Notes under the pieces: generated by a model
What the model was told of the DNA's origin: nothing
Databases searched by the model: none
What the model saw: the letters and a program-made list of their open reading frames with translations, nothing else
Made by a program: the position numbers and the translations under genes
IMG/VR virus record: IMGVR_UViG_3300021963_000478
Location: 1 to 29,718 of that record
Source: a virus
Strand: one strand, 5' to 3'
Length of the DNA stretch: 29,718 bases
Shown here: one piece after another, positions 2,932 through 25,790 of the stretch
Layout of the letters: each line of letters opens with the position of its first letter
How positions within the stretch are numbered: position 1 is the stretch's first letter

Positions 2932-5900
2932 CTATTTATTTTGCAATTGAAGAAGTTCTGCGTATTGCTTGGCTGCCTTGGTGTCACCACGCATTGAAGC
3001 TTGTTGACCAAGTTTGGCGTAGCGAGCAGCAATGCTTGCCGATGTATCACCGTTTTCGGCTGATAGTTTCACTTCAGCGAATTCCTTTGCATCACGGAAG
3101 ATTTGATCGATGGCTTTTGTGTGGTAATTTGATCCCACTGGCCATTGCTCTTTAGGGATGCCTTTGTTTCGCAGTTCCTGTACGAGGTCGTATGAGTCTT
3201 TGTAGGCTTGGGTCTTGAACAAGGAATCGAGCCTTGGGCCAATCCCGTATTCACCCATAAAGTCTTGCATTTGACTACGTTCTACAGCTGATAACCTCCG
3301 CCCCTTACTGTCAGTACGTAAGGTGAACGCTACATCGTATCCCGACTTACGTAGAAGTTCTTGGGTCTCGTTCCATCCAGGGTTGATCTGAAATGGGCTG
3401 ATGATGTTAGTGCCCCGGACAATTGGGTGGTAAAGTTTGAGAGGCTCACCATAAAGAATCTCACGCTTGTACGGTAGGGCACCCTTGAAACCAACGTTCC
3501 TGTTTGCGATTTGTTGTCTGAAGTCTTCTTCTAGCTCTCGCATACCGGGGTTAAAAGCCTCAGCAATCTCCTTCCTAAGACTGGAGTACGGGAGAATACC
3601 GTTTGAGTACATCGCAATCGTCTTATTAATACCTGCTCCGGCGCCACCTGAACTGAACAGCTCAGCCAGTGGCTGCAAACCGCTAAGAAAAGTCTTATTG
3701 GTGAGGTTCATGGCTAACAGGTACGAAGCCCGTTCAAACCATGTCTCAGTCCAGACGCTTCCTTTGTTGTCTGAGTTGTCACCGATGTCGGCAATCATCG
3801 CGAGGTAACTAGCAAAGGGATCCAGCCCGTCGTACCCAACCCAAACGCCATCTGCCAACTTGATAGACCGGGGTGACCACCCAGACTGATACCAAGCATT
3901 TCTCGTTTCCTTGTCACCAGGACCGTTACCGGTCAGATTTCCACTGAGGTACATGCCAATAGCACCAAGCGTAATCATCTGACCTGTAGCAATACGACCT
4001 TCGTACATTGCTTGTGTAGAAGCAAGGTCGGTGATGCCGTATTTGGCGGTGACTGCTTCGATGGTGTCTGGTGTTACATTGAGGATCTCATCGACTTCTT
4101 TGATGAAGCTGTTGAAGATCGGAACTTTCTTACCAAAACCACCCATCGTCCCAAGAGGATTGTATGTCAACGTATACTTCAATGCATTGATACCCGTTTT
4201 TGGGAACATCAGGTATGGCTGAAGAATGGGTGCTCTATTTAGCAGGGCATTTACCCACTTAAAGCTATCCCCTAGTTCAGTGGTAAGAGCTGCTTCATCA
4301 CCAGCAAGCGTTGCCGCTTTATCTGTGACAATGCCGTCCTTATCAAAGATCTGATAGCGAAGTTCTTCTTCGTACTTACGAATCATGTTGGCGTTGATCT
4401 TGCCACCAGTTGCGTCCCATGCCTTATCAAACGCAATGTTCTTGAGCTGCATACGACCAAGAATCGTGCGGTTTGCAGCGTCACCAGCACCCATCAACCC
4501 CATCGTATAGTTGACAAATGGGGAATTATTAAAGCGACTCATCATTGTTGCAAGCCGATAGCCTGCCTTGTCACCAGTAGTGCCTCGTGCTTCGGTCCAT
4601 TCACCAAGGGACTTCCACTCAGGCTTCAGGTGCAGAGCATCAGTGTTCCCTGCAAAGTTGGAATAAGGTATACCTTCACCAGAAAGGTGGTTCTTCCACG
4701 AAGTATTGAAGAGTTGCATTGCTTCTCCAAACCCTTCAAACCACACATTCATCTGACTCCACGCCTTAGCTTGGATACGCTCATCACCACGTGCCACACC
4801 ACCAATCAAGGTAGTGATCGGGCGCAGGGCAACCGCCATCGACGTGCCTGTCCATGCTCGTAGCGTTGTTTTAGGGCCAGAGAGAAGGCCGTTGATGAAT
4901 GTGCTTCGGATACCACGGATAATCCCGCCCTGCTCCTCAGGTGTAGCCGCACCCCACTTCCAGATGCGATCCTTCATGTAGTTGTCAAGTTGAGCAAGGG
5001 TTTTGACATCACCACCTGAGATTGCCATTGCATCTACAAAGTGGTTGATAAGTCGATCATCACCTTGATCACGGATTTGACGAAGGGTCGTCATTGAACT
5101 AGCCACACGCTCATCGATAGAACTGATTGCCTTATCAATATCCGAACCACGAATCAGGTTTGTACCTGCTTCTTTTATCAATACACCACGCTGACCCCAG
5201 AGGTACTTGTATTTCCAAGTCTCTTTAAGCAGGAATTCCATTCGACGCATCAACATGTTCTCTTGGTGAGTCGTGTCGATTGCACCTCGAACGGATTTGG
5301 CAGCGGCTGCAATATCAGCCATCTCACCAGCGGTTACATTGATAAACAGCTCAGCGGCAGCAAAGCTTTCAGCGTTCATGTATTTGATTGTCCGACCAGC
5401 GATTGGCTCACTAATCTGGTTATCAAGCATTTTTGCCTTGAACGCTTCAAGGTCTTCAGGATTAGAGAAGTCATCAAAGAGATCAATCGCTCGTGCTACA
5501 GCAAGACGTTTATATTCCTTACGTGTGACTCGCACACCGTTTACTTCTCCAATGAAGCCGTCACCCTTCAGAGCATTATCAGCAACACTCTCGATGATCT
5601 TCCGACGCACAGCATCAGTACCAGCGAGGCGTTTCTCAAGAGCTGCTTCAGTAAAGAGCGACCGAACACGTCCGTCTTTGACCAATGGATCGGAATCAAT
5701 GCGGTAGGCATCCAGCAATGCTTTAGCAAGGCCGTCTTTCCTTACACTGAAGACAGAGTTCTCGTGTTTGTCGAAGAGTGGACTGTTGACATATCCATCA
5801 GGACCGTTGAGCCCCTCAGGATCATCTGCGTAACGGCTCTGTGCCATTTCATCAGAGTTGTCCTGCCTTGCCTTCTGATTGGCTTGGATTTCATCGTCGT

Positions 5901-23582: not shown

Positions 23583-23719
23583 TTACCTTGACCTCGTCGT
23601 AGTTTCTTTGATCCTTTTGGGAGGGAACGGGTTCCATTTCCCTGGTGGGTGTGCTTGTACTTTGCACGTGATTCAAAGGTCTTTTTGGATAGGTTTGTTT
23701 TTGATTTCTGTGGAGGCAT
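23579..23719 (-). CDS. Small basic 46-aa protein
   Basis: This short ATG frame begins MPPQKSKTNLSKKTFESRAK and ends 'RSLPKGSKKLRRGQGK'; about one third of residues are Lys or Arg. It starts inside the end of the HNH endonuclease gene (47-nt overlap) and ends with an ATGA junction to the 67-aa gene. It fills what would otherwise be a 90-nt hole in a gapless operon. No Shine-Dalgarno is visible. The composition suggests a nucleic acid-binding or ribosomal-protein-like peptide. No family is recognised. Confidence 0.65.
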   Translation of the reverse strand: MPPQKSKTNLSKKTFESRAKYKHTHQGNGTRSLPKGSKKLRRGQGK

Positions 23720-24137
23720 TCTGTAGATACATAACAGCTGCCATCAAGCCAGCCAGGTTGTCACCTAGTTGACCTATGGCTCGATTGCATTGATTACAAA
23801 GCCACCCACGATGTTTCAACGTGGAGTGATCATGATCAAAGCAAAGTTGAGATTTTGTGTCGCCACAAATAGGACACGGTGTTCCTACCTGTGGTGGTCT
23901 TGGGTTGCCCGCTAAGGACTTGGCTTGTGCAAGAGCTTGACTAGCTGCAGACTCACAAGATTTGCATTTAGATCGACGGTAATCTGAATCACCCTTTCTC
24001 CAAGGCGCAAACTCAAGTATGTCTTTTAGTTGACCACATTTAATGCACCGAGTAAAAGTCTGGTCCGACTTTTCCTTGGGCTTCGATTGGGCAGCGCAAC
24101 TTGTAAAACTCCCCAGCAGCTCTAGCTGAGTACTCAA
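23673..24137 (-). CDS. Endonuclease VII-type HNH nuclease without an ATG start
   Basis: This reading frame has 154 codons. An N-terminal zinc-knuckle pair (Cys31-x2-Cys34, Cys58-x2-Cys61) precedes the recombination endonuclease VII core: Cys88-x2-Cys91, 'CFDHDHSTLKHRGWLC' (99-114) and 'CNQCNRAIG' (114-122), with zinc Cys114/Cys117 and the His/Asn of the nuclease site. T4 endonuclease VII resolves Holliday junctions, but relatives are often free-standing homing endonucleases, and the position directly after DNA polymerase fits that. There is no ATG before residue 132. The candidate start is TTG at 24137, which overlaps the polymerase gene by 98 nt; CTG codons 7-8 are other options. The recognisable domain begins just where the polymerase stops. 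Confidence 0.8.
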   Translation of the reverse strand: MSTQLELLGSFTSCAAQSKPKEKSDQTFTRCIKCGQLKDILEFAPWRKGDSDYRRSKCKSCESAASQALAQAKSLAGNPRPPQVGTPCPICGDTKSQLCFDHDHSTLKHRGWLCNQCNRAIGQLGDNLAGLMAAVMYLQNASTEIKNKPIQKDL

Positions 24138-25314
24138 GTATGAACTTCATTGTGTCGGCCTCAGCCGGGGGGACTTCATAAAACAAGGCATCGTGAATAA
24201 ACGCTAACTGGTGTGAATCAAGCTTCTGTTCTTTGATCATGTCATCGATCATGACCATCCAGCGTTTGGCTACTACACCAGCACTGGATTGAAGAAGATA
24301 GTTCAGAGCCTTGTGAGGCCCGTCAACCGATATTCTTCGCCCATCAATCGAATTAACATACCCTGAAGCTGTTGCTTTTTTCTTGACTGCATTAACAAGA
24401 TCCTCAAGACCTTCAATTGCATCAAGATACGCTTGCCTAATTTCTTTTCCCTTTTTTCTTGCCTTATCGGCAGGAAGCTGAGGGTCATAGGAACGTCCGA
24501 TCTTTTCGTCCCCAGCCCCATAAAGGAAAGCATAGGTAACGGTTTTGACAAGCTTACGGCTAATTCCAATCTTGTTAGCGTTGACTTGGTGAATATCACC
24601 ATTAAGCAGGACCTCACCATACTTGCCGCTGTCATAACGAGCAAGGTAGTGCGCGAACATTCGCAGCTCGATGCCGCTAAAATCGGCGCCAGCCATGACC
24701 AGTCCTGGAGTAGGTCGGAAGAGTCGTTGAAATTGTTCTCCACTAGGAATCTGGGCTACGTTAGGATTTCGATGTGCGCATCTATGCGTGTTCGTAGATA
24801 CAGAACAATGATGATGAATCCGGCCATTCCGAAGAAGCTTTAACCAAGCATTAGTGCCTTCCGACAACATGCCAAGCTGCTTGTTCAGATCCAAGCACTG
24901 AAGAAATTCAAGCGCAATTGGAGTGCCAATCTCAGTAAGTACTACTTCATCAATGGTTGCCTTCCCCTTATCTGTGAATTGGGTTGGCTTCCACCCATAG
25001 AACTCCTTCATCACCCATGCGATGTGATCTCGACTGGTTGGGTTAAGATCCTTGAGGCGCGTAAAAGCACATCCATTGAAATATCCTTGGGTCTTGTTAG
25101 GACGACGAGGAGTAAACTCGCTTCCCGCAACGAAAGGATGTCGTTCTCTAAGAGATGCTGACAGCGATTCAAGTGTAGATCGAAGTTCCGATTCCAACTC
25201 ATGAGCGGATCGTTCGTCGAAGTACCATCCATGCAGCTCCTGTTCAGTAAGGATTTCAGCGACCCGATGTTCAAGTGTTATCCAATCAGGAATTTCTTTT
25301 GGAAATGATTCCAT
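24040..25314 (-). CDS. DNA polymerase, family A polymerase domain (split gene, C-terminal part)
   Basis: This ORF of 424 residues from ATG at 25314 holds the whole polymerase domain of a T7 gp5-like enzyme. Motif A is 'GADFSGIELRMFAHY' (Asp211), motif B 'RKLVKTVTYAFLYGAG' (Lys257, Tyr261) and motif C 'FIHDALFYEV' (Asp375). Motif C reads His-Asp-Ala where family A normally has His-Asp-Glu. The thumb insertion that binds thioredoxin in T7 (about 75 residues) is reduced to roughly half that (about residues 58-92), so thioredoxin dependence is doubtful. The C-terminus ends 'GPDFYSVH', matching the natural T7 end. The exonuclease domain is in a different frame upstream (-1 relation, 37-nt overlap). 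The frame stays open upstream to a TTG at 25380. Confidence 0.93.
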   Translation of the reverse strand: MESFPKEIPDWITLEHRVAEILTEQELHGWYFDERSAHELESELRSTLESLSASLRERHPFVAGSEFTPRRPNKTQGYFNGCAFTRLKDLNPTSRDHIAWVMKEFYGWKPTQFTDKGKATIDEVVLTEIGTPIALEFLQCLDLNKQLGMLSEGTNAWLKLLRNGRIHHHCSVSTNTHRCAHRNPNVAQIPSGEQFQRLFRPTPGLVMAGADFSGIELRMFAHYLARYDSGKYGEVLLNGDIHQVNANKIGISRKLVKTVTYAFLYGAGDEKIGRSYDPQLPADKARKKGKEIRQAYLDAIEGLEDLVNAVKKKATASGYVNSIDGRRISVDGPHKALNYLLQSSAGVVAKRWMVMIDDMIKEQKLDSHQLAFIHDALFYEVPPAEADTMKFILEYSARAAGEFYKLRCPIEAQGKVGPDFYSVH

Positions 25315-25790
25315 AGTTTGTGGGTTACCTGTAGGTCTTGGGCGCAATAGTCCTCCATGTCTTGGGACCAGTCTTTCCAATCCGTGGTCTTAGCGAAGCC
25401 ACCCTTGTATTCACCCAACCTGTATCCGTAGGATTCAAGAGAGTGACGACCAAAGAGTTGAAGCGGCATATGGGGCCACTTACGGGTTTGATCTATCTTG
25501 AGAATGTCAGGATGGTAAAGCCGAGAAAGAATAAGAGTGTCCAAAGACCTAGGTGGTTTGAACCATCCATAGAATTTTTGAATTACGGGGATGTCATAGT
25601 TGATAATGTTATGGCCAATGATCGTGTCAGCTTCCTCCAGCATCGTGATAGCACGAGCAATGGGTTGCTGATTACCTTGGTCATTGAAGACATAAGTCTC
25701 ACCGTTATCAAGGTCCTTGATAGCAACACAGTGAATAGTGGATACGTTGTTGTACAGGCCGTTGGTTTCGATGTCGAACAGGAGGTTCAT
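25278..25790 (-). CDS. DNA polymerase, 3'-5' exonuclease domain (split gene, N-terminal part)
   Basis: This protein has 170 residues corresponding to the T7 gp5 proofreading domain. The exonuclease motifs are intact: Asp6 and Glu8 ('LLFDIETNG'), Asp66 ('HNIINYDIPV'), and Tyr148 with Asp152 ('DYCAQDLQVTHKLW'). 'LTWEAL'-like helices are replaced by shorter ones. The frame closes soon after the last motif ('HFQKKFLIG'), while the adjacent -1 frame continues 'KEIPDWITLEHRVAEIL', which is where T7 has '..DIEHRAAWLL'. Two proteins, a programmed frameshift or a sequence error are all possible. The ATG overlaps the previous stop (ATGA). Confidence 0.92.
   Translation of the reverse strand: MNLLFDIETNGLYNNVSTIHCVAIKDLDNGETYVFNDQGNQQPIARAITMLEEADTIIGHNIINYDIPVIQKFYGWFKPPRSLDTLILSRLYHPDILKIDQTRKWPHMPLQLFGRHSLESYGYRLGEYKGGFAKTTDWKDWSQDMEDYCAQDLQVTHKLWNHFQKKFLIG

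Follow-up and report, generated by a model that had tools for sequence, protein, structure and literature searches.

The DNA polymerase of the virus in the window (the whole 29.7-kb stretch of DNA that was analysed, 29,718 nt, virus record IMGVR_UViG_3300021963_000478) is encoded by two overlapping open reading frames (ORFs), one for the proofreading exonuclease and one for the polymerase domain. This is very probably a genuine split gene, the products of which would be two proteins, each with its own initiation, that form a T7-type replicase of two subunits. The window polymerase belongs with those of the P-SSP7-like (MPP-B) cyanopodoviruses, a clade in which the split arrangement is already known and annotated; what is new here is comparative sequence evidence that favours a split gene kept in place by selection on the internal start codon.

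A sequence-only reading of the window had described two ORFs in a -1 relation, with the polymerase ATG at 25314 and the exonuclease stop codon ending at 25278, and this layout was recovered exactly as described (Table 1). The polymerase frame is open upstream to a TTG at 25380, while the conserved start is the ATG listed in the table; the TTG was rejected as the polymerase start, because in 83 of 213 relatives the frame is open for no more than two codons ahead of the conserved start. At its 3′ end, the polymerase gene is overlapped by 98 nt by an endonuclease VII-like ORF (window 23673-24137), and a similar neighbour is also annotated in S-SRP01 and SS120-1.

Table 1 Coordinates of the split polymerase genes and their overlap in the window
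Feature	Position	Strand	Remark
Proofreading 3′-5′ exonuclease (putative subunit), 170 aa	25278..25790	-	T7 gp5 residues ~1-194
Family A DNA polymerase (putative subunit), 424 aa	24040..25314	-	T7 gp5 residues ~195-704
Polymerase start codon ATG, inside the exonuclease gene (exonuclease codons CTA TGG)	25312..25314	-	
Exonuclease stop codon TAA	25278..25280	-	Most relatives: TAG a few codons further on
Dual-coding overlap, 37 nt, -1 frame, polymerase ATG to exonuclease TAA	25278..25314	-	

Domains, folds and catalytic residues of the two parts

The exonuclease ORF gave a Pfam match to RNase_H_2, with DNA_pol_A_exo1 just below the cut-off, and the polymerase ORF matched DNA_pol_A (1.9e-38). Within PHROG_17, the exonuclease covers positions 673-828 and the polymerase positions 828-1232, leaving no gap between the two parts. 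The predicted model of the exonuclease (pLDDT 94) found its best match in residues 1-194 of T7 DNA polymerase (Z 21.9, rmsd 1.6, 165 residues), and that of the polymerase (pLDDT 91) in residues ~194-200 to 704 of the same protein (Z 38.8, rmsd 3.3, 412 residues), indicating that the break lies at the domain boundary. T7 gp5 is covered end to end by the PHROG_17 and model matches, which bears out the earlier suggestion that joining the two frames recreates a continuous T7-like polymerase. An intron- or intein-interrupted polymerase of the Pf-WMP3 type was rejected, because there is no insert and the parts are contiguous in PHROG_17 and overlapping in the DNA.

Exonuclease residues D6, E8, N61, D66, Y148 and D152 are invariant across 38 aligned sequences, and polymerase residues D211 and D375 across 39; we take these positions to be catalytic on the basis of motifs known from T7 gp5 and Pol I. 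Their invariance argues that neither part is decaying. Both proteins are predicted with high confidence to fold alone, and the exonuclease model closes with a long C-terminal helix (residues 143-166) that includes residues encoded in the overlap.

The window proteins share with T7 gp5 the same domains in the same order, the catalytic residues and the fold, so that by catalytic motifs and T7-like folds they are a T7 gp5-type family A polymerase; however, T7 carries both domains in one polypeptide, whereas in the window they lie in two ORFs. The window polymerase is also ~40 residues shorter than that of T7 in the part that matches the T7 thioredoxin-binding loop (25090-25146, residues ~57-75), and processivity may work differently in the split and fused clades. 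A thioredoxin gene is annotated near the polymerase in the MPP-A phage S-TIP28.

The same two ORFs, with the same -1 relation and start position, are annotated as exonuclease and nucleotidyl transferase regions in P-SSP7 (PSSP7_017A/017B) and S-TIP37 (STIP37_17A/17B), with a protein identity to the window of ~54-63%. Their overlap is 40 nt, against 37 nt in the window, which has one extra codon and the earlier TAA stop. The closest annotated record, Synechococcus phage S-SRP01 (MW015080; 80% DNA identity over the region, 84% polymerase protein identity), is likewise annotated as two genes overlapping by 40 nt, with the stop, unlike in the window, being a TAG at the usual site. Family A polymerases annotated in more than one gene also occur in the OM43 phages MEP401/402 (PMC10580990) and in Pseudomonas phage DL54; there, however, the break falls inside the polymerase domain or the pieces are parted by other ORFs, whereas in the window the two genes overlap at the domain boundary.

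Selection on the internal start codon and the frameshift question

At one fixed position, the polymerase-frame codon of 213 distinct junctions is ATG in 199, TTG in 12 and ATT in 2, that is, ATG or TTG in 211/213, and in both ATT junctions a TTG directly follows the ATT. The first base of this start codon is the third, synonymous, base of an exonuclease Leu codon. Over the 213 junctions that codon is CTA, TTA or CTT (GTA, valine, once) and never CTG, CTC or TTG; among exonuclease Leu codons elsewhere, 39% end in A, and CTG, CTC and TTG together make up 35%. On the tree, the start-forming base changed 5 times, versus 34-56 times in six further conserved Leu codons of the exonuclease that lie outside the overlap, whereas the first base of the same Leu codon, not being part of the ATG, showed an ordinary rate of change (25 changes versus 19-38 elsewhere); these are Fitch counts on the FastTree tree that ignore branch lengths, and the contrast is large. 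A conserved Leu outside the overlap, polymerase residue 40 (25195-25197), has only 6 third-base steps, which is unusually few.

The exonuclease residue that follows the start-overlapping Leu is W or C in 211/213 junctions, two unlike residues that share the codon-initial TG needed for ATG. Exonuclease residues 158-170 and polymerase residues 1-17 show a suppression of synonymous change, which at the end of the exonuclease gene sets in at the ATG. Three loci (L021, L026 and L030) carry a 39-nt insertion after the ATG, within the overlap (~locus 4030-4091), in which both frames and the ATG are kept; the insertion contains AAGGAGG. The other end of the overlap is also largely fixed, with TAG as the exonuclease stop in 201 junctions, TAA in 7 and TGA in 5, and an overlap of 40 nt in 177/213. 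In most relatives, the TAG is kept through polymerase Leu codons ending in A; where the stop is located elsewhere, as in the window, that Leu codon is free (CTT in the window).

Slip sites were searched by tallying canonical heptamers and X_XXN tetramers by position over the 213 junctions. A canonical X_XXY_YYZ heptamer was present in only 3/213 and no slip position was conserved, so that the conserved slippery sequence of a programmed -1 frameshift gene of the dnaX or insertion-sequence type was not found in this set. X_XXN tetramers, at which a single tRNA might slip, are found at codon 6 in 62% of the junctions and at codon 4 in 52%; both are missing in 44/213, and the two vary independently, with no compensation. 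A further tally over the whole possible shift interval gave no X_XXN tetramer anywhere in 20/213. The slip interval of the window holds the tetramers T_TTC and A_AAG, the latter being present at the same codon in only 5/213 relatives, and the usage of the His codon behind T_TTC does not depart from background (CAT 110, CAC 101). We agree with the earlier remark that CAA-AAG-AAA in the window is not a canonical slip site.

These counts bear on two ways in which a fused protein might arise. One is that the overlap yields mainly two separate proteins together with a minor frameshifted fusion, which we regard as improbable: slip tetramers are frequent and the window itself has both T_TTC and A_AAG, but no slip position is conserved, the codons that create one are not under selection, and a Shine-Dalgarno-like stimulator is missing. 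The other, that programmed -1 ribosomal frameshifting in the overlap produces a fused polymerase as the main or sole polymerase product, appears highly improbable, even though every relative in the clade shows the -1 relation, tetramers suited to a single-tRNA slip are frequent at two codons, and frameshifting is one of the options given by the authors of the P-SSP7 and S-TIP37 GenBank entries, in notes that read 'split variant' or 'frameshift'. Set against it are the rarity of the canonical heptamer, the junctions that lack both commoner tetramers or have none at all, the independence of the two commoner tetramers and the background usage of the His codon; moreover, frameshifting alone gives no reason to keep an ATG at a synonymous site. 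Transcriptional slippage was rejected as well, as no homopolymer in the interval exceeds 7 and the longest is usually 3-5, which is short for slippage.

Between the outcomes that the sequence-only reading had offered, the conserved start codon thus speaks for two polypeptides, and the want of a conserved slippery site speaks against a frameshifted fusion as the main route. Proteomics of P-SSP7, as cited in PMC3350473, is said to confirm 'a putative frameshift or a split variant'. Among the papers searched, none resolves split versus frameshift.

Conservation and single origin of the split

Relatives were gathered from IMG/VR and from GenBank phages. Both parts are present in 269 loci, of which 249 show the -1 split and the other 20 have a single frame; the split loci come from both isolates and metagenomes, P-SSP7 and S-TIP37 included. 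With T7 as the root, a FastTree tree shows the split clade to be monophyletic with a support of 0.991, and its 88 split representatives include no fused member, so the split has a single origin. Its sister is a clade of marine cyanopodoviruses (MPP-A: Syn5, S-CBP2) with one uninterrupted polymerase gene. Both the -1 overlap at the domain boundary and the tree placement assign the window to the split MPP-B (P-SSP7-like) polymerases.

The 20 single-frame loci consist of the MPP-A group (Syn5, S-CBP2, S-CBP42, SS120-1, S-TIP28 and metagenomic relatives), Roseobacter phage CRP-118 and two PCR-era records, EF535232 (L091) and EF535233 (L003). The fused MPP-A polymerases (Syn5, S-CBP2, SS120-1, S-TIP28) are homologous to that of the window, with an identity of 42-46%, but are encoded in one uninterrupted ORF. 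The two PCR-era records seem to reflect editing or misreading and not a true fusion, because in comparison with the S-CBP1 and S-CBP3 genomes, that is, those of the same phages, each has one extra C at the same site (position 492), which makes an artificial single ORF. A second polymerase frame break, near the O helix, is present in S-RIP1 (L099), NATL2A-133 (L103) and P-GSP1 (L104), where an A-run at locus ~2290-2360 is one base short; these breaks look like homopolymer sequencing errors. The exonuclease and polymerase region carries no annotated genes in the public MPP-B genomes L002, L004, L008, L092, L098, L099 and L100, perhaps due to the frame break.

The sequence-only reading had looked to close relatives for a decision, a conserved split supporting its description and one uninterrupted gene in all of them overturning it; the split proved to be common to 249 relatives, and only the sister clade has one uninterrupted gene. 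A sequencing or assembly error, which that reading had also considered, or a decaying pseudogene is therefore practically out of the question: single-base differences do exist in this gene in public records, but the split is common to the 249 loci from isolates and metagenomes alike, and neither part varies in its catalytic residues.

Proposed translation and implications for marine podoviruses

A Shine-Dalgarno sequence at the polymerase start is absent across the relatives (mean energy 0.4 versus -2.2 for random positions), and initiation there would thus be weak, coupled or Shine-Dalgarno-independent. Several other genes in the window also have no Shine-Dalgarno sequence. The sequence immediately 5′ of the ATG is predicted to be highly accessible, and an A-rich stretch adjoins the start; combined with the absent Shine-Dalgarno sequence, this accessible A-rich stretch suggests separate initiation, perhaps coupled, as the likely route.

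We propose that a single mRNA would carry the exonuclease ORF and the overlapping polymerase ORF in the -1 frame. The exonuclease would be translated as far as its own stop, and ribosomes would start the polymerase independently at the ATG at 25314, which has no clear Shine-Dalgarno sequence, perhaps in coupling with translation of the exonuclease. The two proteins would most likely associate via the interface that joins both domains in T7 gp5, and the result would be a two-subunit replicase in which proofreading acts in trans.

The P-SSP7-like podoviruses infect Prochlorococcus and Synechococcus and are widespread, and their polymerase gene serves as a standard marker of diversity. The comparison favours a real two-subunit replicase and largely settles the old annotation ambiguity, split versus frameshift, in the GenBank notes; a further indication is that MPP-B marker-gene records in which the frames are joined into one are artefacts. 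It is conceivable, although rather doubtful, that proofreading is a dissociable subunit of this T7-type replicase, in a logic like that of the bacterial Pol III alpha and epsilon subunits. If so, these marine phages could replicate with a polymerase either carrying or lacking its editor, and fidelity would be set by the relative translation of two overlapping genes.
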